Virus record (IMG/VR): IMGVR_UViG_3300032770_000051
Coordinates: 1 to 40,331 of that record
From: a virus
Reading direction: 5' to 3' (one strand)
Length of the DNA stretch: 40,331 bases
Numbering within the stretch: the stretch's first letter is position 1; the number at the start of each line of letters is the position of its first letter. A program made the position numbers and the translations under genes. Below the pieces are notes generated by a model. That model searched no databases. It was given only the letters and a program-made list of their open reading frames with translations, and was not told where the DNA came from. Positions 17,064 to 36,153 of the stretch are shown here, in pieces.

Positions 17064-18926
17064 TTAGCGATTAACAGTCAGACTCACGACAATATCATGC
17101 AACGCCCCAGCTTCTTTTGCAAGAATCTGGATAGTAGGCGAAATACGTTGACCGCGCTGCGCTGCGCTTTGAAGTGCCATCGGCGCTGCCCAAACGTAAT
17201 AACCATTACTCAGAACCTGACCCGTTTGCACAGGACCAATACCGGCGCTAGTCCAAGTTCCTGCGGCCAAATAGCCATTATTTACGAAAGCTTGGCAGGA
17301 ATTTTGTGCAGTAACGATCAGTTGGTGCATACCAGCGTCAGTTTGAGGAATTTTAGTATTAGTCGTAACCATCAGATTGAAAAGATCAGTCTGAATTTCA
17401 TTCACAAGACCGTCAAGACCAAAAACTTCGTCAATAAAGTCCTGCGATGCCATCATACCGTTGACTACAATGGCTACGCCATTATTGAAAAGAGCGTAGT
17501 AATTATAGCGTTTGGTGTTCAGGGCTGTTGCCTGCGTAGGAGTCAGAGTTTCATAGGTAAAGCCTGCAAGCTGTTTCCACATAAGCGTAATCATGGAACT
17601 TTGTGCGGAGAAGTCAACAGTCAATAGCTTGCCATATAGTCCGGCTACACCATAGGGATTTTGGGACGAATACATATAAAACGTGCGGGTGTAACCAGCT
17701 GCATTGAGATTGTAGCCAATATCCGCTGTACTAGAAGAAGAAAGCGCCCCAGCTTCCGAAGTAGTAAGGCCGAAGATATGCGGATTGCCAGTAGATGCTG
17801 TACTGGATTCGATATAAGGCGCAATTGCCAAATAATCGCTATCGGCAATATCGCCGTTGTTAGTGCCAGCCGCGAACATCAACCCGTACCAATAGGTTGT
17901 CATCGAATCGAGTGTCTGAACACAGGCAACAGCAGTTTCGGCCGCAACACCAGAAGTTGCGTATTGTGCTAAAGTAGAAGTACCCAAAAGCTGTGCAGAA
18001 ATATCGGTGCCAGAGCCGACTGAAGTCAAAAATCCCATAGACGAGGTTGTGCCAGAAGAACCAGACGAGAAGGTAAAGTTATCAACCGCAGCATTGTAAA
18101 CAACGGTTGCCGTTGTACTACCGGCGATTGTTGCAGTATTCGTTCCCGGCAATGCACCGCCACCAATAAGACCAGTTCCAGGCATCTGCCAGTTTACGCC
18201 GATTGCAATTGGCGTTGCAGTTTGTTTTGTTTCAGTGCCAGTTGAACTACTAGCATAGACGTTATAGCCTGTAACGCCAGCGCCATTAGCCGCAGGACTT
18301 GCAACAGTAACAACGTGGTTGGCCGTGACTAGAAGACTGGATTCGGCACTGGGAGTTGTTTCACCGTTGACTGTGACATAAGTCGTCTTAACATAGTAGG
18401 TTGTCTGTGTGAGAGAACCGCTGGCCGCAGAACCGAGAACTGGCGTACCAGGTACAGTCACACCACCAGCTTGTACCGCAGTCTGAATAGTAGAGGCAAC
18501 GTTGTTGAGATTTGTTGCCGCACTGAAGTTAAGTCCAGTGTACTGGAAGGTTGAACCGTCAATTGTTGCACCAAATGAGCCGGTGGTAACAACTGTCCAA
18601 TTGGATATGCTCTGTTGCGCCGCAGTTAAGAATCCACACTGCAACACGCCATGCGAGGCAGTTTTGGCCCAACGACCAATGTAAAGTGCAGTCGGAGTTG
18701 GCGACTGATCGAAGAAAATAGTTGCAGCCAAATATTCAGGCGCAGTTGTACCAAAGTCACCAGCAACACCTGACAGTGAAGAATAAAGTCTGATTCTTTG
18801 GTAAGTATCAATCACATTCGAATCGCCAATAATCAACAGTGTCTGGAGATTCAAATAGCTTGCGCCTAGCGGCGTCAAAGATGCCGAGACGTTAACCAGA
18901 TTAGTAATCGGCAAACCTACAGTCAT
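17064..18926 (-). CDS. Contractile tail sheath, DUF3383-like, with inserted Ig/FN3-like domain
   Basis: A 620-residue protein. The N-terminal part (LVNVSASLTPLGASYLNLQTLLIIGDS..., YLAATIFFDQSPTPTALYIGRWA) and the C-terminal part (AYIESSTASTGNPHIFGLTTSEAG, VDFSAQSSMITLMWKQLAGFTYETLTPTQATAL, FIDEVFGLDGLVNEIQTDLFNLM) are those of DUF3383 sheath proteins. Between about residues 155 and 265 an extra domain splits the usual IQTAV and TTATVVYNA strands: TYYVKTTYVTVNGETTPSAES, then GVTGYNVYAS and a closing IGVNWQMPGTG. This is an Ig or fibronectin-type pattern. The sheath contracts on infection; the extra domain would face outward on the tail. Confidence 0.9.
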   Translation of the reverse strand: MTVGLPITNLVNVSASLTPLGASYLNLQTLLIIGDSNVIDTYQRIRLYSSLSGVAGDFGTTAPEYLAATIFFDQSPTPTALYIGRWAKTASHGVLQCGFLTAAQQSISNWTVVTTGSFGATIDGSTFQYTGLNFSAATNLNNVASTIQTAVQAGGVTVPGTPVLGSAASGSLTQTTYYVKTTYVTVNGETTPSAESSLLVTANHVVTVASPAANGAGVTGYNVYASSSTGTETKQTATPIAIGVNWQMPGTGLIGGGALPGTNTATIAGSTTATVVYNAAVDNFTFSSGSSGTTSSMGFLTSVGSGTDISAQLLGTSTLAQYATSGVAAETAVACVQTLDSMTTYWYGLMFAAGTNNGDIADSDYLAIAPYIESSTASTGNPHIFGLTTSEAGALSSSSTADIGYNLNAAGYTRTFYMYSSQNPYGVAGLYGKLLTVDFSAQSSMITLMWKQLAGFTYETLTPTQATALNTKRYNYYALFNNGVAIVVNGMMASQDFIDEVFGLDGLVNEIQTDLFNLMVTTNTKIPQTDAGMHQLIVTAQNSCQAFVNNGYLAAGTWTSAGIGPVQTGQVLSNGYYVWAAPMALQSAAQRGQRISPTIQILAKEAGALHDIVVSLTVNR

Positions 18927-22975: not shown

Positions 22976-24067
22976 TTAGATTCCGTCACGATAGCCCACA
23001 GTTTCAGGGTAAACCACTTCAAGCACGCCGAGACGGCAGAAATAAGTGCTCTTATGATAAATCCCATCATACTGAATAGGAGTGCGTTGCATCAGAGTCA
23101 TCGGATAACGAATACGTTCCGGGTCTTTGGTATATGCAACCATACGATCGACAGTACCAGTCTGGCCAATCGTACCGCCAACACCTGCACCCTGGCACCA
23201 CTTCAGCGGGAAGATTTTCAGCTTCGCAACGCCAGAAGAAGTCAACAGATTATTCTCCAGAAGATAACGCAGGATCGACACGTTACCAGCATTAGAAACA
23301 ATCTGCGTAGAGATGTAGGAGTATTGTGCCGGTGGCAGCAACAGCCGATTCGGTGGGAAAGACCAACCAGAAGCTGCCCAGACGTTATTCAGAATTTCGT
23401 TAACGTCGTTCAGAATTTCCGGCGGGGTTTTGTTTACCCACTGAGTTGCATTGCTTGCACCGACTGCAACGTTTGCAACGTTAGAAACCTGACCAAGATT
23501 AGCCGAGGCATTGTTGTAGTTAACCATGCCGTATTCGGAGAAAGTCGTATCTCCGTAATACACCATTTCGTCGATATCCATCTGGTGCTTCAGTTGCATA
23601 CCGAAAAACTTCTGCTGGTCAATTGGACGACCAACAAGTGCTGCCGATTCCAGTTCCAGAATCGTATACTTCAGTTCCATGCTCCAGGGACGCAGAGCGT
23701 GGGGAATTTTGGCAATGTCAACACTAATGCCAGTAATCTGAGTTGTGTCTTTACCAACCCAGGCTTTGCCGTTGCCAATACTTTGGCCAACACCCGGACC
23801 AGAAGCAGAACCATAGGTCGAGAGCGTGAAGCTCGAAACTTCGTTTGCGATTGTCACATCTTCACGAAGATCAACGTCACGCCCCCAAGTTACGGCTGCA
23901 AGTGGCTCATGCAGGCGCAGGTCGAGGCGTTCAAGCTCGCCAACCAAGAAAGCGCCTGTTGAGTCAGCGACCTTTCCGTCCGCCATCTTAATACGAATGG
24001 GAAGTTGCTTCCCACGCATATTACCTTTGGCGTCGTGACTATATTCCTTGCCATCAAACGTGAGCAT
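22976..24067 (-). CDS. Major capsid protein, DUF2184-like
   Basis: A 363-residue protein. It carries the DUF2184 capsid signatures: an N-terminal arm, a first core segment (LHEPLAAVTWGRDVDLREDVTIANEVSSFTL at about 53-83), then ITGISVDIAKIPHALRPWSMELKYTILELESAALVGRPIDQQKFFGMQLKHQMDIDEMVYYGD (about 111-173), and WSFPPNRLLLPPAQYSYISTQ (about 235-255). The D-x-x-V-Y-x-G-D motif and the P-x-x-L-L-L-P-P motif are typical of HK97-fold capsids of this family. It forms the prohead shell. It is preceded by the cement-like protein and the protease/scaffold, the expected order. Confidence 0.9.
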   Translation of the reverse strand: MLTFDGKEYSHDAKGNMRGKQLPIRIKMADGKVADSTGAFLVGELERLDLRLHEPLAAVTWGRDVDLREDVTIANEVSSFTLSTYGSASGPGVGQSIGNGKAWVGKDTTQITGISVDIAKIPHALRPWSMELKYTILELESAALVGRPIDQQKFFGMQLKHQMDIDEMVYYGDTTFSEYGMVNYNNASANLGQVSNVANVAVGASNATQWVNKTPPEILNDVNEILNNVWAASGWSFPPNRLLLPPAQYSYISTQIVSNAGNVSILRYLLENNLLTSSGVAKLKIFPLKWCQGAGVGGTIGQTGTVDRMVAYTKDPERIRYPMTLMQRTPIQYDGIYHKSTYFCRLGVLEVVYPETVGYRDGI

Positions 24068-24662: not shown

Positions 24663-25748
24663 TTAGCGAGTAGAACCACCAGTACCCCAAATTGCTTCAG
24701 ACTGTTCACGAAGTTTACGGCTCAAATCACCAATCGAACCAACAGCAATCGCGCCAGCCGGCGAACCGACATTAGACACAGTGAACGCGGCCTGATTATT
24801 GCGGTCACGATACATCCCCGCAAGAGCACGGAAAGTAGTTGTGACAGAATCGCAGGTCATCCGGCGAAGATCGGCGCCGCGAGTCAGATTGTGAAGATCA
24901 GCGCCTTGTTCCATATCCTGCGAAACATGATTCAGTACCCGGCGACGAAAACCGCACATGGTATTAATGACATTAACCGGATGCTTCGAATCCACCGTCG
25001 GAATACGAACACCAGGAATAATAATCTCTGCATCAGCAATCATATCCTGCCACTGTTCATGCAGGCGGGCCATTGTATCACCGGCTTTACGACGACGATC
25101 GCCAGTAGTTCCTGCAAATTCAGCACCGGAAGAACCAACAGGAGCTTCTGCACCAAATCCACGAGGAACGGATTTGTTTTTGGTATTGGTTTCGCCGGGA
25201 TGGTCCATTTCAATCCCGTTGCCTTCGGAATAATCACCGCCTTCGTAGATGCCTTTATTCGGCGGATGATTAAAATGCGGCTCCCGGCGTTCCAGATTTG
25301 CTTCATCACCAAAGCCAGACGGTTCTTCTTCTTCACCACCAGATGCCGGTTCGCCTTCACCGCCACCTTCACCAATTCCCAATGCTTCGCAAATCATATC
25401 CAGCTTTTGGGCCAATTGGCCATGTTGCTGTTGAAGCATAGCAACGTCATCCTGGACTTTCTTCATGCCGCCGTCGCCCAACGCAGGTTCAGTTGCTCCT
25501 GCTGCCGGAAGTGCTGGTGCTGGTGTAGGACTTTGCATAGTATTGTCTCCGCCCGCTGAATGGGGATGTAAATGAATATGAGTGTGATCGCCACCAGATT
25601 CAGGAGCCGTAGAGGCAACTTTTTCTTCGGCTTCTTTTGTAAGAGAAGCCAGTTCATTAGCATCCCTTGCCTTAAACGCACGACCAATAAAATCCGCAAT
25701 CCAATTTGTCGGCTTCACTTCGGTAGTGGTTTCAGATTCAGTCGTCAT
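24663..25748 (-). CDS. Probable nested scaffold protein from an internal start
   Basis: Inside the DUF2213 gene, codon 189 is an ATG (25748-25746) with AAAGGAG and a 9-base spacer, a better ribosome site than many gene starts in this window. It would make a 361-residue protein consisting of the scaffold part alone, starting MTTESETTTEVK just after the protease domain. Lambda C/Nu3 and many other phages make a scaffold from an internal start in the protease gene. The ribosome site and its location exactly at the domain border support this; expression is inferred. Confidence 0.55.
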   Translation of the reverse strand: MTTESETTTEVKPTNWIADFIGRAFKARDANELASLTKEAEEKVASTAPESGGDHTHIHLHPHSAGGDNTMQSPTPAPALPAAGATEPALGDGGMKKVQDDVAMLQQQHGQLAQKLDMICEALGIGEGGGEGEPASGGEEEEPSGFGDEANLERREPHFNHPPNKGIYEGGDYSEGNGIEMDHPGETNTKNKSVPRGFGAEAPVGSSGAEFAGTTGDRRRKAGDTMARLHEQWQDMIADAEIIIPGVRIPTVDSKHPVNVINTMCGFRRRVLNHVSQDMEQGADLHNLTRGADLRRMTCDSVTTTFRALAGMYRDRNNQAAFTVSNVGSPAGAIAVGSIGDLSRKLREQSEAIWGTGGSTR

Positions 25749-26312
25749 CGCTTTAATCTCCTTTGGTTTGCTATCATATATTCTGCATTTTGGACCGCAA
25801 CGGCCACTTTGAACTAAAGCAACATGGTTTCCAATGATGTTGACTTGTTTAGCTTGGCCGGGGCCGATCTGCACATAATCAGCATCGTAGCCGCAAGAGA
25901 CTTCACGTTTGCGGTTGCTTAAAATTTCTTCGATTGCCAATTCATCTGTAACTAAAATATCTGCCATCAAAATATCATCAAGAATCCCCCCACCACGCCG
26001 GGGTGAAAGCACTGTACCCACAGCTACATCACGCCAATTTTCCGGCGTAACATCTACAATTTCACCATTAACCGAAGGATGTTCAATTACAAAAGGCTTG
26101 CCAGCAAAAGATGCAATAGACTCTGGTTTAAAGACTTCCTCCGGTGGGCGAATAACATGAACAAATCCGTTGCCATCTGGCTCTAACGGCATTTCCTGCG
26201 ACGTATAAAGCTGCTCGCCAGTCCTGGCAATAATAACATCCTTACAGATTAAGAACCCCTCCGGGGTTCGGAGAAGCTTATCTGAAAGCTGTTCTGTAAA
26301 AAAGAAACGCAT
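24663..26312 (-). CDS. Prohead protease/scaffold, DUF2213-like
   Basis: A 549-residue fused protein. Residues 1-180 resemble the DUF2213 protease: FLICKDVIIARTGEQLY, the FVIEHPSV motif (about 74-82), RKREVSCGYDADY with Ser139, and NHVALVQSGRCGPKCRIYD with His163. Residues 240-256 contain a His-rich bead (HTHIHLHPH) followed by GG. The rest is a scaffold: a Gln/Leu helix (KVQDDVAMLQQQHGQLAQKLDMICEAL at about 285-311), a long acidic, Gly-rich linker, and a helical C-terminus with CGFRRRVLNH and RRMTCDSVTTTFRALAGMYRDRNN. The start has AGGA with an 8-base spacer. It processes and shapes the prohead and is probably removed by self-cleavage. Confidence 0.85.
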   Translation of the reverse strand: MRFFFTEQLSDKLLRTPEGFLICKDVIIARTGEQLYTSQEMPLEPDGNGFVHVIRPPEEVFKPESIASFAGKPFVIEHPSVNGEIVDVTPENWRDVAVGTVLSPRRGGGILDDILMADILVTDELAIEEILSNRKREVSCGYDADYVQIGPGQAKQVNIIGNHVALVQSGRCGPKCRIYDSKPKEIKAMTTESETTTEVKPTNWIADFIGRAFKARDANELASLTKEAEEKVASTAPESGGDHTHIHLHPHSAGGDNTMQSPTPAPALPAAGATEPALGDGGMKKVQDDVAMLQQQHGQLAQKLDMICEALGIGEGGGEGEPASGGEEEEPSGFGDEANLERREPHFNHPPNKGIYEGGDYSEGNGIEMDHPGETNTKNKSVPRGFGAEAPVGSSGAEFAGTTGDRRRKAGDTMARLHEQWQDMIADAEIIIPGVRIPTVDSKHPVNVINTMCGFRRRVLNHVSQDMEQGADLHNLTRGADLRRMTCDSVTTTFRALAGMYRDRNNQAAFTVSNVGSPAGAIAVGSIGDLSRKLREQSEAIWGTGGSTR

Positions 26313-26322
26313 CAGATAAATC

Positions 26323-26856
26323 CTATTTTCTCAAAGAAAGAAATTTCATCGTAATGGCGTATTGCAAAGCCGAATCGTGATAACTCGAACCATAACCCTT
26401 GATATAAGCCTCTTTCGCAAGAGTCAGATACAAATTCGCCAACTTAGTCACGTCGGTAGATGTTTCAGTAATTGGTTTCAACCGCCGCAACTCAATTGCA
26501 ATATCTTCGCCTTTCTTTGCTGCTTCGCGCAAAGTTCTAATCTGTTTTACTAAATTCTGCGCCACTAACGCATAGCGCCGTGGATTTTCCAGCGTTTCCC
26601 ACATTTCATCAAAACGTCGACCTACTGCCCTAAGTCTTTCCATTCTAGCTTCTTGCTTCGGGCCGGGGTCAGGTTTTTCACTAACCGCTGGAGAAGCTGC
26701 TGGATTTGCAATTGGCTTAGACTTAGAGACATTGCCCCCGGTTGTCCATTCACCAACTGCATTTCGTGGTTCATTTGGATCAAACTCATCATGGCCAGAC
26801 AAGGCTCGAGTCCCTCCCGAACCATAAGTATGTAAGTGAATATGACGGTGTGGCAT
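26323..26856 (-). CDS. His-bead protein with FDPNEPR motif and helical C-terminus
   Basis: A 177-residue protein. It starts with MPHRHIHLHTYGSGG (alternating His and hydrophobic, then Gly), followed by DEFDPNEPRNAVGEWTTGG at about 22-40, a motif seen in many phage proteins near the prohead protease (F-D-P-N-E-P-R-x-x-x-G-x-W-T). Residues 68-177 are helical, with a K-A-A-K-E...GSSYHDSALQYAITMKF end. The start overlaps the stop of the preceding His-bead gene (TAATG). Its role is unknown; location next to the protease suggests a head assembly accessory. Confidence 0.6.
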   Translation of the reverse strand: MPHRHIHLHTYGSGGTRALSGHDEFDPNEPRNAVGEWTTGGNVSKSKPIANPAASPAVSEKPDPGPKQEARMERLRAVGRRFDEMWETLENPRRYALVAQNLVKQIRTLREAAKKGEDIAIELRRLKPITETSTDVTKLANLYLTLAKEAYIKGYGSSYHDSALQYAITMKFLSLRK

Positions 26857-27068
26857 TATCTTGAAACCGGCATCCGAGGCTTACCACCGCAAGAGCAATC
26901 ATGTTCTTGTGGCTGCGAAACCATAGGCTGAACTGGTTGAACTTTTGGCACCACCGGCTTAACTGCCGTTGGACTTTTCACCACAGGTGTTGCAACTACT
27001 GCATCTTTGGCAGGTGGGGCTTTCACCCCACCACCTATATAAAGATGCAAATGAATATGTTTTTCCAT
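26856..27068 (-). CDS. Small His-bead protein, Pro/Val-rich with C-terminal Cys motif
   Basis: A 70-residue protein starting MEKHIHLHLYIGGG, followed by a Pro/Val/Lys-rich stretch and a C-terminal HDCSCGGKPR. The His-bead is nearly the same as in the next gene (HIHLHTYGSGG), in the DUF2213 protein (HIHLHPHSAGG) and in the small gene behind the large terminase (HIHIHL). Alternating His and Cys at both ends could bind a metal. The function is unknown. A purine-rich ribosome site (AGGATAAC) precedes the ATG. Confidence 0.6.
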   Translation of the reverse strand: MEKHIHLHLYIGGGVKAPPAKDAVVATPVVKSPTAVKPVVPKVQPVQPMVSQPQEHDCSCGGKPRMPVSR

Positions 27069-27089: not shown

Positions 27090-27563
27090 TTACTTATAAA
27101 ACACATCCACATAAACACCAGCCACTGCGGTGCTAGTATCACCATCAGCGCCACCATGAGTCAAACAATAACCCATTCCGAGAGGGAACTTCTCACCGAA
27201 ATCGCCATTATTAATCGGGAAATAAGTAATTGTCGAAGTCGGAATGGTAATCGAAAGTTCAAGATTCGTCGTTGCACTGCAAGTCGGCGCCGCAGTGCCG
27301 TTGTAGAAATGTAAATACTCCAGCGTTGCAACAGTATTGTTGACCTGAACACCAAACAATGTGCGTTGACCGGCTGCACCAACCAAATGAGAATTAGTTG
27401 TAGTTGTGCTGGCATAATGGTCATCCAACATACCCTGACCAGCCGGAACAATACCAAAGTTCTGTTGCGGCGAACCCAGAACTGGCGGCGCGGCCATTGC
27501 CGAACCAGCGCAAGTTACTGCTAAAGCTGTAGCAGCAACCCCAAATTTAAGAATCTTTTTCAT
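27090..27563 (-). CDS. Exported virion-decoration-like protein, paralogue 1
   Basis: A 157-residue protein with a Sec-type signal peptide: Lys-rich start (MKKILKFG), hydrophobic core and an AMA|APP cleavage site after about residue 24. The mature part has GSPQQNFG, then FGVQVNNTVATLEYLHFYN, APTCSATTN (Cys), a beta stretch with IPTSTITYFPINNGDFGEKFPLGMGYCLT (Cys), and DGDTSTAVAGVYVDVFYK at the end. The end pattern F-x-x-G-x-x-Y-x-L-T...D-x-x-T-A-V-A...V-x-V-x-x-Y-K is common in phage proteins of about 110 residues that I believe decorate virions. It is a close paralogue of the next gene. The signal peptide is unusual. Confidence 0.75.
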   Translation of the reverse strand: MKKILKFGVAATALAVTCAGSAMAAPPVLGSPQQNFGIVPAGQGMLDDHYASTTTTNSHLVGAAGQRTLFGVQVNNTVATLEYLHFYNGTAAPTCSATTNLELSITIPTSTITYFPINNGDFGEKFPLGMGYCLTHGGADGDTSTAVAGVYVDVFYK

Positions 27564-27576
27564 ATTTCAAATCCTC

Positions 27577-28047
27577 TTACTTATACAGCACGTCGAGGAT
27601 AACGCCAGTTGCGGCATTAGTATTATCACCGTCAGCGGCTGCACCAGTCAAGCAATAGCTCAATCCTGCAGGAAAGCTTTCACCAAACATTCCCTGGTTT
27701 ACAGCAACAACAGTCGTTGTAGAAACCGGAATCTTGTAGGTGAACTGAATATTCGTTGTCCCAGTGCAAGTCGGCGCTGTTGCTGAATTGTAAAAGTGCA
27801 AATAATATGCTGTGCCTGTGGTATTATTCACCACAAAACCAAACATCGTATGCTGACCAGCAGCAACAAGAGTTGAATTAGTCGTTGCAGCAGAAGTCAA
27901 ATGGCTATCAGTCAAGCCAGGACCAACTGCCTGAATACCAAAATTCTGTTGTGGCGAACCCAAAGCCGGAGGCGCAGCAAAAGCCGCACAGCCCATTGCA
28001 AGAGCCAAAATAGCACCTGCAACAGTAGTTTTCAGAAAATTCTTCAT
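27577..28047 (-). CDS. Exported virion-decoration-like protein, paralogue 2
   Basis: A 156-residue protein with a signal peptide (MKNFLKTTVAGAILALAMG, cleavage AFA|APP). The mature part aligns throughout with the 157-residue neighbour: LGSPQQNFGI, GQHTMFGFVVNNTTGTAYYLHFYN, APTCTGTTN (Cys), F-x-E-S-FPAGLSYCLTG (Cys) and VILDVLYK. Roughly half of the residues are identical. The two Cys of the mature part are conserved in both copies and could form a disulphide in the periplasm. The gene pair is separated by only 13 bases. A ribosome site AAAGGAAT precedes the ATG. Function is inferred from the fold-like pattern only. Confidence 0.75.
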   Translation of the reverse strand: MKNFLKTTVAGAILALAMGCAAFAAPPALGSPQQNFGIQAVGPGLTDSHLTSAATTNSTLVAAGQHTMFGFVVNNTTGTAYYLHFYNSATAPTCTGTTNIQFTYKIPVSTTTVVAVNQGMFGESFPAGLSYCLTGAAADGDNTNAATGVILDVLYK

Positions 28048-28375: not shown

Positions 28376-28639
28376 TTATTGCTCAGTTACATTGTAGTCA
28401 ACTATAGGCCCATTTTGCGGCGTCGCAATAGGCAGGCCAGGAATAGTCTGCCTTGAGCCTGGCAAAAATGGCAGTGGAATCGTTCCACCAAAAGAATTTC
28501 TGTTCACTCCCGAAGTCTGTGGCGTTGTTCTTGGTGCCTGTTGCATCGAAATAACTTGCCGACCGCCAGTTTTAGGCAAAATCGACACTGTTCTCTGTTG
28601 CAACCGCTGTATAAAAGTTAAAGGACATGACGGATACAT
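28376..28639 (-). CDS. Small Pro/Gln-rich protein
   Basis: An 87-residue protein rich in Pro, Thr, Gln and Gly (QQAPRTTPQTSGVNRNSFGG, IPLPFLPGSRQTIPGLPI), probably with little stable structure. Its ATG overlaps the stop of the PSD-like gene (TGATG), so translation is coupled. No family is recognised. It might be an accessory of the enzyme before it; there is no direct evidence. Confidence 0.55.
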   Translation of the reverse strand: MYPSCPLTFIQRLQQRTVSILPKTGGRQVISMQQAPRTTPQTSGVNRNSFGGTIPLPFLPGSRQTIPGLPIATPQNGPIVDYNVTEQ

Positions 28640-29340
28640 CAGATTAATACCTCAAACAGTGCATCAACACCAGCCTGAACATGCACTCCAGCCCTTAAAA
28701 GGGGCTTCACATATTGTCCTGGAATAATCAAATCAACTTGACTACCCCAGCGAATCGCTGAAAATCGAGCATTTTGAGGGAAAAAATCATTCTGCCGAAC
28801 TGAAAACGGTGTAATCGTATTCACTTCATCGTCTGCAATCTGAACAATATAATAATTAACCTCTTTAACTGGGCAATAAATCTTATTTACCATCCGGGCA
28901 TTGTAAATCTCATAGCCCGAATAGTTGAAATTCACTAAATCCTTCATCAATTCGTTTTCAGTCGCCAACATTGGCTGATTATACGTCAAAATCGGCGGAA
29001 AAGGACGAAAATTTATCAATCCTTCTGTCGGCATCCGATTTACATGCGGGTCGTAATACGTCATAAACACGCCAGCGACCCAATAATCCTTCTCCGTCAA
29101 TTCTTCTTGGACAATATCTGAAAGTTTATGATATTTTCCTTTAATTCCAATGACTCCCGAAGCTGAAATTCGGTCAATATACAAAAGCACACCATCAGCA
29201 GCCGAATAAACTACTTTATGGTCCATAATCCGTGCCCGATACGGATCGCGGAAAAACTTTTCCTCCGACATTTGCCGTTCAGGCACCGAATCAAACTCTG
29301 CTTTCGCTCTTTTTGTCCAAATCTTCAGTTCCTCAGCCAC
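28639..29340 (-). CDS. Phosphatidylserine-decarboxylase-like enzyme
   Basis: A 233-residue protein, the size of the short soluble PSD type. I place the start at GTG 29340 (GGAAGG with a 7-base spacer, overlapping the upstream stop as GTGGCTGA); an upstream TTG has no good ribosome site. It shows the family blocks in order: FFRDPYR (29-35), YSAADGVLLYIDRI with Asp49, GVFMTYYDPHVNRMPTEG with His99, NARMVNK, VNYYIVQIAD and IRWGSQVDLIIP with the self-cleaving Ser200. The Asp-His-Ser set for forming the pyruvoyl group is therefore intact. The substrate may be phosphatidylserine or, as in some relatives, a free amino acid. Such enzymes are not usual in phages. Confidence 0.8.
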   Translation of the reverse strand: MAEELKIWTKRAKAEFDSVPERQMSEEKFFRDPYRARIMDHKVVYSAADGVLLYIDRISASGVIGIKGKYHKLSDIVQEELTEKDYWVAGVFMTYYDPHVNRMPTEGLINFRPFPPILTYNQPMLATENELMKDLVNFNYSGYEIYNARMVNKIYCPVKEVNYYIVQIADDEVNTITPFSVRQNDFFPQNARFSAIRWGSQVDLIIPGQYVKPLLRAGVHVQAGVDALFEVLI

Positions 29341-30253
29341 TTTCCGACCTTCCTGGCTGAAAATCAAAATAATTCAGATGCATTACCAAACAACTTAGCG
29401 CCGCACCTGATTTTCCAAACTCAGAAATGTTAAAAACAACACTTTCCATCGAATTATCAGCCGCAGTCTTTTCAACAAAATCTACCAACTGCCTTTGAAC
29501 CGCATAATCTGCATCTTTTGCGCTTAACTGCCTAATATCAGAGCCGACCAAAACAAGACGCCTAACCCGGACACAATTAGTAGCTCCGGCCACCATAATT
29601 TCTTTGGGCGCGGCAATGATTTCAGCAACTTTTTCCAGTGCTTTAATCTCGTGAGAATCGATTTCTGAAGTTGCAACAACAATCTTTTCCCTCGTCAGTG
29701 GAAAAATCAAACAATCCAGATGATAGGCTTCTGGATTTTTCAGTCTTATCGGGATAATATTCATATCATAGGTATCAGCAAACCATTTAATCGCTGCAGA
29801 AGTTGTTCTCATGCCATAAGACATGATATAAATATTATCCCTCAAATACTTAGCATCTGCCTCACCTTCAAAGTATTTAGGACAAATATCTACTACATTT
29901 TCAACACCCAACATCTTAAGAAATGCAAACCCAGGTAATGTTTCGCCGCGGCGCGGAGGGGACCGAAAGGTGCTTACAACAACCGTATAATCTTTTAAAT
30001 GCGGAAGAACAACACCAAGATTTGCTACAAACGGTTGATCTTGAAGCCCAGGATAAGAAGGAACGAGATAAACCAAACCAACAGAAGAGAGAAAGTTATA
30101 AATCTGCAAAAACTGGACTAGAGCTTTGTTTCGATCAATTTTTCTTTCAGCAGGTGACAATTCCTGCATGAAAGCATTGTTCGCTTCGCCCGTGTCCAAA
30201 TAGAATGGCGGAGACATTGCAAAAACTGGATAAGATACTTTATTGTAATCCAT
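29333..30253 (-). CDS. Amidinotransferase/DDAH-like enzyme
   Basis: A 306-residue protein, typical length for the dimethylarginine dimethylaminohydrolase/arginine deiminase/amidinotransferase fold. The catalytic set is visible: FEGEAD at 128-133, YHLDC with His178 and Asp180, and the C-terminal SEFGKSGAALSCLVMHLN with Cys288. These enzymes attack guanidino groups through the Cys and either hydrolyse or transfer an amidine. The N-terminus (SPPFYLDTGEANNAFMQ) also fits the family's substrate loop. The gene overlaps the PSD-like gene by eight bases, so the two are coupled. Whether it acts on arginine, a modified arginine, an amino-lipid head group or another compound cannot be told. Confidence 0.7.
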   Translation of the reverse strand: MDYNKVSYPVFAMSPPFYLDTGEANNAFMQELSPAERKIDRNKALVQFLQIYNFLSSVGLVYLVPSYPGLQDQPFVANLGVVLPHLKDYTVVVSTFRSPPRRGETLPGFAFLKMLGVENVVDICPKYFEGEADAKYLRDNIYIMSYGMRTTSAAIKWFADTYDMNIIPIRLKNPEAYHLDCLIFPLTREKIVVATSEIDSHEIKALEKVAEIIAAPKEIMVAGATNCVRVRRLVLVGSDIRQLSAKDADYAVQRQLVDFVEKTAADNSMESVVFNISEFGKSGAALSCLVMHLNYFDFQPGRSESG

Positions 30254-30256
30254 ATC

Positions 30257-30814
30257 TCAAGCTGCACTTTTCTCTTTGTGTGTTTTTTCGATTTCTAATT
30301 GTATAAATTCTTCTTGTTTTTGTTTACGGGCAGAAATAGCTTCCTCTAAAGAAGAATAATAGCCAAGATGGTGCAATTTATAATTATACTGTATATAAGC
30401 ATGCCATTTATTTTTCTCACAACTCCAAGAAACTCCAATATGACCTGAAGTGTTATTACGAGGTACATTTATTTTATTTAAATTATTTCCAGATTTTGTT
30501 GTTAAACGTAAGTTTTCTTCACGGCAGTCTAATCCATTACAATTAATATGGTCAATCAGATTTTTGCTTTTACCCATAATAAAAGCATGTAGATGTGTCA
30601 TTTTATATTCTAAATGCCAACCCTTGTAACCACCACTCTTCTTCCACTCACGCCTACCGGTAGGAATACTATTAGTTGCATAAGTGCAACTTCCGCTAGT
30701 AGTTAAGTGCCAAGGTCCAGCTTTAACTACTCTTTCATAATGTTTTTCATCAACAATGGCAAAATCTTTATTATTAGATAAAGGAATTAGTTTACAATTT
30801 GCTGGACAGTCCAA
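30257..30814 (-). CDS. HNH homing endonuclease with AP2 domain
   Basis: A 185-residue protein. Residues 70-105 hold the HNH centre (MTHLHAFIMG, LIDHINCNGLDCREENLRL). Residues about 122-165 are an AP2-like DNA-binding domain (SGHIGVSWSCEKNKWHAYI, then LGYYSSLEEAISARK). This layout is standard for free-standing HNH homing endonucleases of phages. The gene is noticeably richer in A and T than its neighbours, a sign of separate origin. The start is TTG at 30814. It lies immediately downstream of repeat copy C, in front of the amidino-enzyme gene; I see no intron sequence around it. Confidence 0.85.
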   Translation of the reverse strand: MDCPANCKLIPLSNNKDFAIVDEKHYERVVKAGPWHLTTSGSCTYATNSIPTGRREWKKSGGYKGWHLEYKMTHLHAFIMGKSKNLIDHINCNGLDCREENLRLTTKSGNNLNKINVPRNNTSGHIGVSWSCEKNKWHAYIQYNYKLHHLGYYSSLEEAISARKQKQEEFIQLEIEKTHKEKSAA

Positions 30815-30930: not shown

Positions 30931-31164
30931 TTAACCCATATCTTCTAAACAAGAACCGCAGTGAACTTCATCTTTACGTGGAAGAAAGGCTTTTCCACAA
31001 ATTTTGCAGAGCGGCAATTGACCATCAACCATTCTTGCGAAGTCTGCATCCGAATATCTTCGGATAGTTGAACAAATAAACGTGCAATCAGACTTAAGCT
31101 GCTTTACTGTTTTGACAAGTGGATCATCGGGCCTTCGGCCCGGTTCATGCTGGTTTGTAGACAT
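30931..31164 (-). CDS. Small zinc-ribbon protein
   Basis: A 77-residue protein. The start at 31164 is chosen because it overlaps the portal stop by 20 bases; a longer reading would lie far inside the portal gene. The C-terminal part has two Cys pairs, CKICGKAF and CGSC, 17 residues apart, forming a treble-clef or zinc-ribbon pattern. The N-terminal half is helical with KTVKQLKSDCTFICSTIRRYSDADFARM. A hairpin (31128-31142) lies inside its early codons. A DNA- or protein-binding role is likely, but nothing points to a specific one. Confidence 0.6.
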   Translation of the reverse strand: MSTNQHEPGRRPDDPLVKTVKQLKSDCTFICSTIRRYSDADFARMVDGQLPLCKICGKAFLPRKDEVHCGSCLEDMG

Positions 31165-33268
31165 TGCCAATTTCAAGCCAACGCTTGACCCCTGGAATAT
31201 CTGTTTCACGTACCGAAAGAATGTTGCCACCATTTGGATAAGATGCTTGATACGCCTGGACAGCAGAATTTGCATCCTTAAATCCAAACAATATCTTATG
31301 CTCATCGAAAGTGCTTGCGTCTGCTCCGGCGGAATTAAGCTTGCCCTGATTCACAATCCAAACTCTCTGCGAATCAGCGTAAGGTCCGACGAAACAATCT
31401 AATCCTTCACCAAATCCTTCCGCCGAGCGGCTATTTTGGATATAGCCGTAGTCTGCGGCAAGCGGCGGGAAGTCGGGAAACCGAATCTCTCCCACAAAGT
31501 TTTCCAGTGCGATGGGAATACCCGCGAACTCGATATAGTGCTGGGAGTTGATTCCGTTGATTGCGTTTGCAATGTCATCTACTGCCTCCGTTAAAGAGGG
31601 CGTAGAATTTGGATTCATTATTCCTTTAGGCGAATTAATTACCTCATACAGATTGCACCCACCGGGCGGTTCAGGATTACTTGCTGAATCCAATTCTTCG
31701 CTAGTGTCAGGGATATTTTCTTCTGGAGTTTTAGGCGGTGTAACATTTCCAGAAGCATTAAAGTTCCCAGGTTTGACGCCAGACTCGGATGCCAGACTTG
31801 AACCACCCGGCCCCGGTGGGGCCGGAGTTGGGTCTGCTTGTTGTTGTAGTTTGCGCTTCGCAAAAGTTAGTCTTGCTTGTTGAATATCGGCCTCGGTGAT
31901 ATTTGTCCAGAGGCCGTTGACGATAGAAGCCTGTTTTAGTTCTTTGAGCGCGAGCGCGTCTGGAACTAGGCCAGATTCCCATGCTGAAAGAACGGCGGCA
32001 GTAACTTGCGCCCCGGCGGTGGCACGCTCTGTTTCCGAAAGTTGCCACAAAGGATTGAAGACGAAATTAAAGTCTTCGGGTAATTCTATTCCTTCGGATT
32101 TGGCCATCGCGCGGTAGATGGTCGTAATCATTGGCCGAAGTTCGCGCTCTTGGCGTTGTCTTATTCCGTCGTAATAGTTCCGCATGTCAGATTCGCCGGT
32201 TGAATTAAGACCGGCAGGAGATTGTCCAAAGAGTCTAACCAGCGGAATTTGCAGCGCACCGGAGATTTGCTGACCAAAGTGAATAAGAGCATCAGCGATA
32301 CCGGAGAAGGAAGTACCTGCGGAAACTTGTGCCGCGAAATCGTCTTCTGAGTCAATTAAGGTTATTCCTTCAATGCCTTGATACCGGCGCATCATTTCGA
32401 CATACTGTTGAAGCTGGTTTACCTGCATCCCACCCGTGGCGATAATTTCACGGAGTTTGCTGATTTTTAAAGTCCGGATGTAGGATTTGTAGACGAGTTG
32501 TGCTGCGCCATTAGTCGCAGAATCGAAGGCGATAAGTCGATCATAGAGCCTTTCCACTACGGAAATGCCCCACATATTTTCCATAACCCTTTGCCAGTAG
32601 GGAAGTCGGACGCCTTCATGGCGTAAAACTCGGGTGTGATGGATGCGCATACCCTCGAAAGTTACACCAGTACCTGATGCGATAACCCAGTAACTGGCCG
32701 GAACTTGAGAATCGTCACCAACGCCGCGGACCATATGATTGAGATCAGGTTCAACCATCCAGCGATCGTAGACCATAAGGCCACGAAATGCACCCAGGCC
32801 AATGCGAGAAATATCGAGAGGGTTTCGCGGGTCTTGCCCGTCAATCATTAGCGCGGCTAAAGCCCCGCCGTATAGGCGGCCCCAACGAATTGTATCGTTG
32901 ATAGCGGGCCAAACTCCCCATTTAATTGCAGCAGTTTCGAGTTTCTTAATTGCGCCAGGGGGCATTTCGCTGGTGATGGTAATGCCCATTTTAGTCATGT
33001 CATCGGCAATTGCGTCAATTGCAACACCAACGATCCAAGAACCGCGATGAATCCATTCCAGCAGAGTTCTGTCACGAGTGACAGGAAGAAACCCGTAGGT
33101 CGAGTCACTAAGCGCGTTGTTTGTCCCAAGGCCCAAATTTAGGGAAAAGTTTTGGAACGTATCGCCAGTAAACTTTTCGCTTAATCTCGTTTCTGTGCCT
33201 TGAGCGCGGGAACGTTTCCCGTCGCTGCCAGCAGAAACTCGATATCTGGGTTTATCTCGGTCGGCCAT
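31145..33268 (-). CDS. Portal protein (DUF1073-like) fused to an inorganic-pyrophosphatase-like domain
   Basis: A 707-residue protein. Residues about 35-450 are a DUF1073 portal: RTLLEWIHRGSWIVGVAIDAIADDMTKMG, WGRLYGGALAALMI, GTSFSGIADALIHFGQQISGALQIPLVRLFGQSPAGLNSTGESDMRNYYDGI. A Pro/Gly/Ser-rich linker follows (475-540). Residues about 583-700 then match the InPase-like domain of phage polyvalent proteins: DYGYIQNS, GEGLDCFVGPYADSQRVWIVNQ (Asp624), FDEHKILFGFKDANSAVQAY (654-673) and VKRWLEI. The portal forms the dodecameric DNA gate. What the extra domain does in the capsid is unknown. It follows a small gene with an overlap of 17 bases. Confidence 0.85.
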   Translation of the reverse strand: MADRDKPRYRVSAGSDGKRSRAQGTETRLSEKFTGDTFQNFSLNLGLGTNNALSDSTYGFLPVTRDRTLLEWIHRGSWIVGVAIDAIADDMTKMGITITSEMPPGAIKKLETAAIKWGVWPAINDTIRWGRLYGGALAALMIDGQDPRNPLDISRIGLGAFRGLMVYDRWMVEPDLNHMVRGVGDDSQVPASYWVIASGTGVTFEGMRIHHTRVLRHEGVRLPYWQRVMENMWGISVVERLYDRLIAFDSATNGAAQLVYKSYIRTLKISKLREIIATGGMQVNQLQQYVEMMRRYQGIEGITLIDSEDDFAAQVSAGTSFSGIADALIHFGQQISGALQIPLVRLFGQSPAGLNSTGESDMRNYYDGIRQRQERELRPMITTIYRAMAKSEGIELPEDFNFVFNPLWQLSETERATAGAQVTAAVLSAWESGLVPDALALKELKQASIVNGLWTNITEADIQQARLTFAKRKLQQQADPTPAPPGPGGSSLASESGVKPGNFNASGNVTPPKTPEENIPDTSEELDSASNPEPPGGCNLYEVINSPKGIMNPNSTPSLTEAVDDIANAINGINSQHYIEFAGIPIALENFVGEIRFPDFPPLAADYGYIQNSRSAEGFGEGLDCFVGPYADSQRVWIVNQGKLNSAGADASTFDEHKILFGFKDANSAVQAYQASYPNGGNILSVRETDIPGVKRWLEIGNVYKPA

Positions 33269-33461: not shown

Positions 33462-33897
33462 AACTCATCTGATTACCATGTACTGTCATGGTTATGTGGT
33501 CAAAGCCGGAAAGGCCAAACAGCGCCATGTTTTGGGAGCTTGCTTCAGCGGTAACATTGTGCAAAGTACAGTCACCAATTTTTAGTTCAGGAATTGTCAG
33601 AAAGGTCATTTCCTGGAAACTGCCATTGGCAGTTGTTGCAAGTGCTGTCTCGCCGTTAGCAGTGAGATGGAGTTTCTTCAGATCATTTTCAGGAAGCGAG
33701 ATAAAAGTTGCACCTGTGTCTACGATGAAGGTTTCGGGAACTGAGTTTATAGTCGTTGGGAGGACAAAGGAATCGCCGGCATAGGTAGCAGAGAAACTAG
33801 AACCTGCCCGTAGGGCAGGTGCAGGTGCAGGAGTTTTAGCACAACAGGCTAAAGCCAAAAGCGAGAGTAAGGCCGCTATGCGGCTGCGCGTTGTCAT
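33445..33897 (-). CDS. Exported retropepsin-like aspartic protease
   Basis: A 150-residue protein. The start at 33897 is chosen because its ATG overlaps the stop of the preceding gene (ATGA) and because it places a signal peptide at the N-terminus: MTTRSRIAALLSLLALACC, with two Cys at the end but an imperfect lipobox. The body has FIVDTGATFISLP at about 57-69, with Asp60 as catalytic residue, then ELKIGDCTLHNVTAEA and ALFGLSGFDHITMTV. This is the clan AA single-domain retropepsin pattern, active as a dimer. It is located between large terminase and portal, an unusual place for an exported enzyme. Its target is unknown. Confidence 0.75.
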   Translation of the reverse strand: MTTRSRIAALLSLLALACCAKTPAPAPALRAGSSFSATYAGDSFVLPTTINSVPETFIVDTGATFISLPENDLKKLHLTANGETALATTANGSFQEMTFLTIPELKIGDCTLHNVTAEASSQNMALFGLSGFDHITMTVHGNQMSFACDQ

Positions 33898-34106
33898 TTG
33901 TTGCTCGGTTCGACACTTTTGCCTTCTAAAGGTTTCTTTCTGCGCCAACGGATTTTGGCAGCTTTAGATGCAATTTGATGCCTACGGCCTGGAGCCAGAA
34001 CAGCAGCGCGGGCCATTCCACCGAAATGGCCCAAAACCGCAGCAGCTTCTTTTGCAGACTCTGAAGCATCTACTGTCAGATGAATGTGGATGTGTTTGTC
34101 GGCCAC
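33894..34106 (-). CDS. Small His-bead protein
   Basis: A 70-residue basic protein starting with GTG at 34106 (AGGA with an 8-base spacer). The N-terminus reads MADKHIHIHLTVDA; the rest has Ala-rich and Arg/Lys-rich parts (GGMARAAVLAPGRRHQIASKAAKIRWRRKK). The alternating His bead is shared with two genes at 26.3-27.1 kb and with a segment of the prohead protease/scaffold. The basic second half could bind nucleic acid. No family is recognised. It follows the large terminase by 10 bases and overlaps the protease gene (ATGA). Confidence 0.55.
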   Translation of the reverse strand: MADKHIHIHLTVDASESAKEAAAVLGHFGGMARAAVLAPGRRHQIASKAAKIRWRRKKPLEGKSVEPSNK

Positions 34107-34116
34107 AGAACAAATC

Positions 34117-36153
34117 CTAGATATGAGGGTTTAAAGCCTTGGTCCCTTTCGGGACCAACCAACGACCAGGAGTTAGAAGTCTAGGCAAAGTTGCATCAGG
34201 AAAATGAACAACAGAAGGCAGAGGCAAAAATATTGCTTCATCCGCTGGTCCGGGGATTTCTTTGCCCTGGATTTTGCGAATTGGCTGTGCTGCTTTAGCT
34301 GCGGCAATAAGTTCTTTTTGCACCGCTATCGCGGCGCGTCGTTCTTGCGCTGTAATTTGCTGTTTGTTCTTTTCCATTTCTGCACGAGAGGCTAGTTTTT
34401 GCCACGTTGCCCAGACGCCACGAGAAGCTGTAACGATTAGCCCTGCAACCGAACGGGCGAGATTGTCATTACCAGTAGCGTTGACGGAATCACGTCCGAC
34501 TTTAGTGACTGAACGTTCAAGTGTGTTCAGTTGCATTAGCAGCCGAGGATTGTCCAGAAGTTCGACTTCACCGGCGGCCAGAATGGGCATAAAATCGCGA
34601 TAAATCTCGGGAAGAGTGAATTTAGTCGGTTCGTAAATTATGCCGACTTTTGAGAAATATTCCTTAGGCCAATCGCCTGTAAAGTGATCGCCTTCGATGC
34701 GAGCTATCGCATAGCGATTGAGGGTTTTGGAAATTGATTCGATTACTTGAGTCAGGCTTTGGTTTGCAGAAAACTCTTCGATGTAGTCGAGAATTGCTGT
34801 TCCATCGCTTGCAAGGTGTGCGATAGCGAAGCTTGGCCGATCTGAAGTTGAACCGGGTACTGCGAAATAGGCACTGTAGCGTATGAGAGCACTTGGTTCG
34901 AGTTTCTCACGACTTGACACCACGCACTTATTGACTGCTGTACGTGAAGCGTAGCTTGCTTTGCTGAAAGAGGCTTTAATTTCTTGATATTTCTGATTGG
35001 CCAAAGCCAACGCAGTAACCGTGTCGTCGTGGAGTCCTTCGGGTGCTTCGTATTTAATGCCAGTGCGGGTAACTTCGTATACGAAATTGCAAAGTTCATC
35101 AACGATAGGCCCTTCAGGAAAACCAAGTTCATGGGCTTGAATTGAAATCGCAAGCGATTCCATAAGCTTTTGCTTCGACTGCGGCGATAAAATAAAGCCC
35201 TCGAAGTTGTCGAAACCATTGTCCTGGAGTTCTTCCAGAACTCGGTCGCCGATGCCGGTGGCATCGACTAAGGCGGGAGTAACATCGCCAACGATTTGTT
35301 TGGTAATCTTTTCGCTCTGTTTCCAGGTCCGCCCTTTCCAGCGGTCAAAGAAGCAAACTTTACCGTCTTCATCTAGGCCGATGACGACAAAGAAGTCTTT
35401 CTTTCTGGCAACGTCGATACCGAAAACGACTGGCGGCTTAGAACTCAAACCCTGAACACAGGCTCGGATGTGACTTTCGCCAAAAGGATTACCGTAATCA
35501 TCTGACGGTTCGGCCAAATACAGTTCATTGAAGACTGCTTCTGGAAGCGATTCTTGAAGCGATTTCACCTCGCTCTGCGCGATAACACCGCCTTCAACGG
35601 CATCATAAATCGTCAGTTTTGCGTAGTGATATTCGCTGTCGGGATTGTTAGTTTCTTCTTGCGCTTTGCGCGAAAGGCGATAGTACCAGGAATTTTTGCC
35701 CTTAACGTTACCGATTATCAAACCGCCGCCAAGGGTGGCGGAAAGCGTTGAACGAATAGCGTGCCACGCTTCTTCTTTAACGCGGCTTGCTTCGTCAATA
35801 ACAGCGCCGTAAACGTCTTCACCGTATAGGCTGTCAGGGTTGTCGCCTGATTTAAACCATATCACTGTTCCATTTAGGAGATTTATGGTCATCTTCTGTT
35901 CGTTTGAAGAAAACGAACCAGGCGTTAAATACGCCTTCAGGCGACGAAATGCAATATCAGCTTGGCCGAAGATCGGAGCAACCCACCAATAATTGTAATT
36001 TGGTTTGCCCTTTAGAGCCTGCTCAACAATCCAAACAATAGCGCCGACGGTTTTGCCCGATTTGGACGATGCCTCGATAAAACTAAAGCGTTTGCCTGAG
36101 AATAGCGCCGCCTCTTGCTTTGGATAAAGTTGTGGACGGGTAAATTCAGCCAT
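34117..36153 (-). CDS. terL: Terminase large subunit with an additional degenerate nuclease domain
   Basis: A 678-residue protein, longer than usual. Residues 1-235 are the ATPase: Walker A ASSKSGKT at 28-35, Walker B VYGAVIDEASR with Asp120-Glu121, motif III IIGNVKG at 146-152. Residues about 243-390 are an RNase H-like nuclease with FGIDVARKKD (Asp247), VDATGIGD (Asp297, Asp303) and HDDTVTALALA (375-385), so it should be active. Residues about 425-580 look like a second terminase nuclease: SFAIAHLASDGTAILD, RIEGDHFTGDWPKEYF, GIIYEPT, ELLDNPRLLMQLNTLER, GRDSV, GNDNLARSVAGLI. The first catalytic Asp there is replaced (AVPGST), so this copy is probably inactive. The protein drives DNA packaging and cuts concatemers. 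Confidence 0.9.
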   Translation of the reverse strand: MAEFTRPQLYPKQEAALFSGKRFSFIEASSKSGKTVGAIVWIVEQALKGKPNYNYWWVAPIFGQADIAFRRLKAYLTPGSFSSNEQKMTINLLNGTVIWFKSGDNPDSLYGEDVYGAVIDEASRVKEEAWHAIRSTLSATLGGGLIIGNVKGKNSWYYRLSRKAQEETNNPDSEYHYAKLTIYDAVEGGVIAQSEVKSLQESLPEAVFNELYLAEPSDDYGNPFGESHIRACVQGLSSKPPVVFGIDVARKKDFFVVIGLDEDGKVCFFDRWKGRTWKQSEKITKQIVGDVTPALVDATGIGDRVLEELQDNGFDNFEGFILSPQSKQKLMESLAISIQAHELGFPEGPIVDELCNFVYEVTRTGIKYEAPEGLHDDTVTALALANQKYQEIKASFSKASYASRTAVNKCVVSSREKLEPSALIRYSAYFAVPGSTSDRPSFAIAHLASDGTAILDYIEEFSANQSLTQVIESISKTLNRYAIARIEGDHFTGDWPKEYFSKVGIIYEPTKFTLPEIYRDFMPILAAGEVELLDNPRLLMQLNTLERSVTKVGRDSVNATGNDNLARSVAGLIVTASRGVWATWQKLASRAEMEKNKQQITAQERRAAIAVQKELIAAAKAAQPIRKIQGKEIPGPADEAIFLPLPSVVHFPDATLPRLLTPGRWLVPKGTKALNPHI

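Follow-up and report, generated by a model that had tools for sequence, protein, structure and literature searches.

The gene pair analyzed here, which encodes a guanidino-modifying enzyme (AMI) and a protein with the phosphatidylserine decarboxylase fold (PSD), is a conserved unit, and there is strong support for a coupling between the two genes. Phages keep the pair as a unit in six or more different gene settings, and it is common to phages and bacteria. Most likely, the pair uses arginine to make putrescine or a related amine. We tentatively propose, at somewhat less than an even chance, that AMI and PSD make up one small metabolic unit leading from arginine to putrescine, for which we infer the substrates, the order of the steps, the product and its use. 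The broader reading, in which an arginine dihydrolase and a PSD-fold ornithine decarboxylase, kept as a unit and shared with bacteria, would constitute a widespread, hitherto unrecognized two-step putrescine pathway of phages, is put forward with greater reserve.

Genomic context of the overlapping genes

The window, that is, the whole stretch of viral DNA that was analyzed, is the IMG/VR record IMGVR_UViG_3300032770_000051 (40,331 bases), and AMI and PSD are our names for two of its genes (Table 1). The 8-base overlap of their reading frames, noticed earlier in an examination of the letters alone (hereafter, the sequence-only reading), is confirmed. An identical overlap at the AMI stop codon, with ATG replacing the GTG of the window, is present in a related phage contig, L002, where the pair is likewise found in the portal-to-protease setting. 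The AMI proteins of the window and L002 are 75% identical and the PSD proteins 64% identical, with dN of 0.22 and 0.30 and dS of 2.0 and 1.7, respectively (both dS values are near saturation). Because dN is far below dS, AMI and PSD are real genes under purifying selection; chance or mis-called frames were rejected on the strength of this selection together with the family matches described below. The HNH endonuclease gene was considered as a further member of the unit and rejected, being missing at that position in L002.

Table 1 Features of the window around the AMI-PSD pair
Feature	Coordinates	Strand	Remarks
Tail sheath	17064-18926	minus	
Major head protein	22976-24067	minus	phrog_264
Prohead protease	24663-26312	minus	
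Small genes between PSD and prohead protease		minus	
PSD, phosphatidylserine-decarboxylase-fold protein	28639-29340	minus	233 aa; GTG start at 29340
AMI/PSD reading-frame overlap	29333-29340	minus	8 bases, GTGGCTGA; also in L002
AMI, guanidino-modifying enzyme	29333-30253	minus	306 aa; arginine-dihydrolase-like
HNH endonuclease	30257-30814	minus	between portal and AMI
Portal protein, long C-terminal extension	31145-33268	minus	phrog_146, phrog_4660; head gene cluster
Terminase	34117-36153	minus	

The head gene cluster has several other features. The C-terminal extension of the portal protein is common to phage minor head proteins and other large phage proteins. Two tandem paralogs among the head genes (27090-27563 and 27577-28047, minus strand) have signal-peptide-like starts and a common APPxLGSPQQNFG motif, and L002 has two similar proteins. 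Small proteins of the head cluster that start with a His-rich stretch (e.g., KHIHLHLY) are encoded at 26326-26856, 26859-27068 and 33897-34106 (all on the minus strand), and two more in another locus, L006 (6153-6407 and 13125-13457). In L002, a frame that lies before the terminase sequence on its upstream side (7-2124) contains the stretch HLYLTNGFVPTHN, which we take to resemble an intein end, presumably belonging to a putative insertion in the terminase ATPase motif.

Conservation of the pair in viruses

Among the 80 viral loci taken from the 120 IMG/VR relatives of the first AMI alignment seed, PSD adjoins AMI on the same contig in 79, the sole exception being a contig that stops 66 bases past AMI. 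The search seeded with PSD only, for which 80 of 244 relatives were taken, gave a matching picture: AMI adjoins PSD in 78 loci, and the remaining two contigs start with PSD. A further AMI seed, of greater diversity, contributed 80 of its 192 relatives; in the pooled set of 169 loci, many of which are repeated contigs, AMI without PSD appears only in two views of one truncated contig, and six Campylobacter loci contain PSD with no AMI within the stretch. With an earlier PSD seed, AMI was present on the stretch in 10 of 16 loci, and the other 6 come from Campylobacter phages with AMI elsewhere. Single-sequence scans of viral contigs returned one relative for one scan and none for the other. The coupling suggested by the sequence-only reading, which had named a lack of neighborhood in related phages as evidence to the contrary, is thus borne out, the pair being adjacent in nearly all loci of the first AMI-seeded set and of the set seeded with PSD only, whose exceptions lie at contig ends.

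Gene order was compared for 93 distinct AMI sequences with PSD, and is AMI-PSD in 91 and PSD-AMI in one (L081); in one more locus (L099), the two genes lie on opposite strands, against the usual order. The ATG nearest to the AMI stop codon overlaps this stop by one base in 79 of the 91 AMI-PSD pairs, a count that rests on the nearest-ATG rule and on predicted start codons.

A search of 50,697 GenBank phage records detected AMI in 47 and PSD in 45; comparison of the two lists by eye indicates that all 45 PSD-bearing records also have AMI, and 45 of the 47 AMI-bearing ones carry PSD. These 45 records comprise 39 Campylobacter and 6 Bacteroides phages, the Fletchervirus records being close kin and counted as one lineage. 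The two AMI-bearing records that lack PSD are phiXF1, which has a distant DDAH-like gene (24%), and PP921807, which has 619 short annotated frames and is probably poor sequence. In Bacteroides phage DAC16, AMI and PSD are adjacent (DAC16_238 and 239), whereas Campylobacter phage NCTC12673 carries them as gp044 and gp085, separated by about 43 kb. The retention of both genes in Fletchervirus without linkage argues more strongly for a joint role than linkage by itself would.

When the 155 pairs were reduced to 26 representatives with an AMI identity threshold of 80%, the pairwise divergences of AMI and PSD proved closely matched (Mantel r 0.91; none of 5000 permutations reached this value, or even exceeded 0.60). 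This match, as judged from sequence comparison, shows co-inheritance and not function because genes that travel together give matched divergence anyway.

Phage lineages and gene settings

The pair is present in several unrelated phage lineages. Most of the environmental loci belong to a T4-like (marine) group in which the major head protein gene is followed by the pair and then by PhoH: the head protein gene is located at most three genes upstream of the pair in 58 of the 60 loci with room, and PhoH at most three genes downstream in 60 of 65 (L038 and L039, where the gene caller missed AMI, were left out of both counts and represent a separate setting). In the window and L002, the pair resides on the portal side of the head cluster, and in L007, it adjoins the DNA polymerase gene. 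The Bacteroides type is characterized by primase, dUTPase, dCTP deaminase-like and DNA polymerase genes; in Fletchervirus, AMI is located between the primase-helicase and sliding clamp genes and PSD after GroES. The L081 setting includes SbcCD-like genes and a Tet/JBP oxygenase gene (9358-10737) that adjoins the pair, there in the PSD-AMI order, and hints at DNA base modification.

Bacterial carriers of the pair

A scan of genome contigs yielded five bacterial loci (L102-L106); gene calls in such high-GC contigs are rough, and the matches there rest on profile searches. PSD adjoins AMI in three of these loci (L103, L104 and L105) and is one gene away in L106, where a gene of the agmatine deiminase family separates the two. 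In the Myxococcales locus L102 (2-2897), a carboxynorspermidine decarboxylase gene, nspC (298 bits against a cut-off of 409, the gene being cut by the contig end), is followed by two tandem AMI copies, and PSD was not found on this 4.6-kb contig. Sampling of three phyla (398, 235 and 396 genomes, seeds included) added four genomes with the AMI subfamily. PSD is present in two of these (G301 and G814, a fragment in the latter), and there is no PSD near AMI in the other two (G336, which has two AMI copies, and G750); two further genomes gave only weak AgrE-like matches. The pair is found in 6 of the 9 bacterial genomes having the AMI subfamily and is rare, at less than 1% of those sampled.

Bacteria carry the pair in sporadic operons adjoining exporters: in four of the five full bacterial loci, the gene after the pair encodes an exporter, of the MATE type in L103, L104 and L105 and of the ABC type in L124, which suggests a small product. 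Four of the six pair-bearing genomes (G003, G004, G005 and G301) have another PF02666 protein elsewhere that matches far more strongly, and the paired PSD is therefore not the housekeeping enzyme there; the search of the other two (G002 and G814) gave only the paired PF02666 match.

AMI resembles arginine dihydrolases

AMI matches the Pfam DDAH_eukar model (7.9e-12; 45.4 bits, above the cut-off of 23), which evidently covers a group wider than DDAH, and phrog_12759 (1.8e-50). In the profile search of the PDB, AgrE (2.5e-32) and ArgZ (2.5e-30) rank as the closest relatives, compared with E of about 0.4 for human or bovine DDAH-1, and DDAH was accordingly rejected as the best name. In structure comparisons with the AlphaFold2 model (pLDDT 92.3), ArgZ and AgrE rank first (Z 34-35), followed by DDAH (about 27, up to 27.7), AstB (about 27), arginine deiminase (26), amidinotransferases (about 24), among them SxtG and the polyamine amidinotransferase HsvA (23.7), and agmatine deiminase (21). 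Of the earlier description of this gene as DDAH/amidinotransferase-like, the guanidino enzyme stands, and DDAH gives way to ArgZ/AgrE as the nearest solved relatives.

The profile alignment matches AgrE N22, D65, N71, R90, E93, E118, R139, H168, D170 and C264 with N26, D72, N78, R101, E104, E129, R149, H178, D180 and C288 of the window protein, and all ten are invariant in 28 of 28 members. The sequence-only reading, for which loss of the active-site residues in homologs would have counted against the pair, had placed the histidine and the cysteine correctly (His178, Cys288); its Glu/Asp range of 130-133 falls within the motif FEGEAD (128-133) and misses the catalytic Glu129 by one residue. 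We take AgrE N71 to be the residue behind the second hydrolysis, and R90 and R139 to hold the substrate carboxylate. The titles of PDB entries 6juz, 6jv1 and 6lrh indicate that C264 and N71 of ArgZ/AgrE were mutated, trapping the substrate or an intermediate. Judging from the alignment and the model, AMI probably works like an arginine dihydrolase; we call it dihydrolase-like and do not file it as a member of the NCBIfam arginine dihydrolase family (NF052232) because its 67.5 bits are far under the cut-off of 450. A role of AMI in making the inosine DNA of Fletchervirus was set aside: hydrolysis of the guanidine part of guanine gives xanthine, not inosine.

PSD is a decarboxylase-fold protein with features unlike those of ordinary PSD

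PSD matches PF02666 (4.8e-20, above the cut-off and over nearly its full length) and phrog_12670 (4.1e-30), and its nearest solved relative by sequence is E. coli PSD (profile E 1.1e-11). It falls below the NCBIfam PSD equivalog cut-offs (best 59.2 bits versus 183) and has no counterpart to positions 1-36 of the short PSD model, TIGR00164. A48-D49-G50, K67, F92, H99, M124, E128, N147, D170, Q189, G199-S200 and P207 are invariant in 23 of 23 members; with the GS site and the catalytic Asp and His residues (D49 and H99) among them, the PSD-like assignment made earlier holds. Self-cleavage is predicted from these residues to occur at Gly199-Ser200, with S200 as the pyruvoyl source. The cleavage motif is GSQ, or GSM/GSA in a few members, and GST or GSR are the usual forms in PSD. 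A hydrophobic N terminus is lacking in 23 of 23 members (best N-terminal 19-residue mean hydropathy 0.43).

With the PSD model (pLDDT 85.4), Foldseek produced no significant match. In VIA, the highest-scoring structures are glucose-specific EIIA (Z 11.2) and E. coli PSD (11.0), followed by the tryptophan decarboxylase PsiD (9.7) and the Aspergillus oryzae arginine decarboxylase (9.0), with the remaining folds at Z of 7.4 or less; the EIIA rows, which are level with PSD, are attributed to a common beta arrangement. Neither PsiD nor the A. oryzae enzyme was recovered with the PSD sequence profile. These two enzymes provide a precedent for the PSD fold taking free amino acids, including arginine. 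None of the sequence features examined fixes the decarboxylase substrate of PSD, and "phosphatidylserine decarboxylase" in phage gene catalogs may not be a lipid enzyme.

A putative route from arginine to putrescine and its alternatives

In the proposed route, AMI, as a cysteine guanidino-hydrolase of the arginine dihydrolase type, would convert L-arginine to L-ornithine with release of CO2 and two ammonia. The soluble PSD protein would cut itself at Gly199-Ser200 to form the pyruvoyl cofactor and would decarboxylate ornithine to putrescine, which the phage could use as a DNA counter-ion, translation aid or building block. AMI is placed before the decarboxylase because the conserved carboxylate-side arginines imply an intact carboxyl group. 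This is the simplest chain, without need of another gene, and it fits the polyamine-type bacterial neighbors (nspC by the two AMI copies in L102 and the agmatine-deiminase-family gene in L106), the exporters, and the head and replication settings, where a DNA counter-ion is plausible. In favor of the route, neither of the two polyamine decarboxylase families examined, PF02784 (PLP Orn/Arg) and PF02675 (SpeD), was detected in any of 34 pair-bearing phage records, many of them fragments. A search of these records for spermidine synthase was also empty, and nothing past putrescine is therefore seen, which counts against the route. Among the three options of the sequence-only reading, a polyamine-like product or use of arginine fits best, and modification of an aminolipid fits worst. 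The substrate of PSD is the weak link of the pathway, and we know of no PSD fold for ornithine decarboxylation; the EIIA match, the lack of a Foldseek match, the low score of AMI against the arginine dihydrolase cut-off, and the presence of AMI without adjoining PSD in L102, G336 and G750 also count against it.

The alternative that survives best, although we consider it unlikely, is that PSD is an arginine decarboxylase that makes agmatine, while AMI uses arginine alongside it or takes a related guanidine that bears a carboxyl group; together, the two would drain arginine or yield agmatine and ornithine. AMI keeps R101 and R149, whose counterparts in AgrE presumably face the substrate carboxylate, so that agmatine would be a poor AMI substrate and both enzymes would compete for arginine. 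In favor of this alternative, a PSD-fold arginine decarboxylase in the PDB matches the model at Z 9.0, and this A. oryzae enzyme is listed as a pyruvoyl arginine decarboxylase in the available text of a 2025 paper (PMC12283126).

Rather less probable is an amidinotransferase activity of AMI, whereby the amidino group of arginine would be transferred to the amine made by PSD to give a guanidino compound. The superfamily is the same, the structure comparison also matched HsvA and SxtG (Z about 24), and the exporters by the bacterial pairs suggest a small product; however, the hydrolases ArgZ, AgrE and DDAH match better (Z 26-35), and N78 is a residue in common with the dihydrolases. We regard as improbable that PSD makes phosphatidylethanolamine or another aminolipid, with AMI modifying the head group or supplying a precursor: against the above-cut-off PF02666 match and the position of E. 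coli PSD as the nearest solved relative by sequence stand the absence of hydrophobic N termini from all 23 members, the separate strong PSD in 4 of the 6 pair-bearing bacterial genomes, and the missed NCBIfam cut-offs (59 versus 183 bits).

There is only a slim chance that the product is a building block for hypermodification of phage DNA bases, for example, a putrescine-bearing base. The Tet/JBP oxygenase next to the pair in L081 and the replication and nucleotide genes that surround AMI and PSD in Bacteroides phages, L007 and Fletchervirus are compatible with such a use, but that neighbor was seen in one lineage only, head genes surround the pair in the window and the marine T4-like group, and Fletchervirus DNA reportedly contains inosine for guanine, which is not an amine-bearing base. 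Finally, that the pair destroys arginine or frees nitrogen in infection, with the decarboxylase serving only to draw the reaction onward, is very improbable: ArgZ and AgrE are established to free two ammonia per arginine, but this would leave unexplained both the constant presence of the decarboxylase and the exporters by the bacterial pairs.

Comparison with known systems

The cyanobacterial arginine dihydrolases ArgZ (Sll1336) and AgrE (Alr4995) resemble AMI in fold (Z 34-35), and seven key residues of AgrE (N22, N71, R90, E118, R139, H168 and C264) are identical in AMI; unlike these enzymes, to which it is only about 24-27% identical, AMI is a single-domain protein with no ornithine cyclodeaminase domain. 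PSD shares PF02666, the GS site, the ADG aspartate and the D-x-H histidine with E. coli PSD and the short archaetidylserine type (TIGR00164), but differs from ordinary PSD in the GSQ motif (GSM/GSA in a few), the lack of a hydrophobic N terminus and the pairing with AMI. PsiD and the A. oryzae arginine decarboxylase have the fold in common with PSD (Z 9-10), but these enzymes are fungal, longer (346-382 residues) and not matched by the sequence profile. The Fletchervirus "aminidotransferase" gp044 and "phosphatidylserine decarboxylase" gp085 are homologs of AMI and PSD (about 37% and 34% identity, respectively) that, unlike the window pair, are unlinked.

Pyruvoyl enzymes of phages that give putrescine or agmatine are known: SpeD-derived ornithine and arginine decarboxylases were shown by Li et al. 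2023, as described in the available parts of that paper (PMC9992855). They belong to PF02675, in contrast to PF02666 of PSD, and PF02675 is absent from the 34 pair-bearing records. The same parts of the paper report no arginase in phages, and its list therefore includes no phage route from arginine to ornithine; a term search of this text gave no result for phosphatidylserine decarboxylase, arginine dihydrolase, amidinotransferase or Campylobacter. Cellular relatives are covered by Li et al. 2023 JBC, as far as the available text goes (PMC10407285). In a search covering few subscription journals, no description of the AMI-PSD pair as a system was found; the only paper returned, an ocean survey, includes psd and genes of the creatine pathway in its discussion of viral genes and, in its accessible portion, does not present them as a pair (PMC11360552). 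The statement of the sequence-only reading that no phage system of this kind had been described agrees with the literature searched, but GenBank entries of Campylobacter and Bacteroides phages already contain the two genes, each annotated by itself; overall, its observation is confirmed and more general than a single sequence could reveal, and its interpretation is partly supported.

Phage polyamine synthesis is thus already known, and the AMI-PSD enzyme pair was not found described in the literature searched. If the proposed reading is correct, the pair would represent a compact route from arginine via ornithine to putrescine and a new ornithine decarboxylase fold, and its conservation in both cultured (Campylobacter, Bacteroides) and environmental phages would allow a simple genetic test of the phage need for polyamines.
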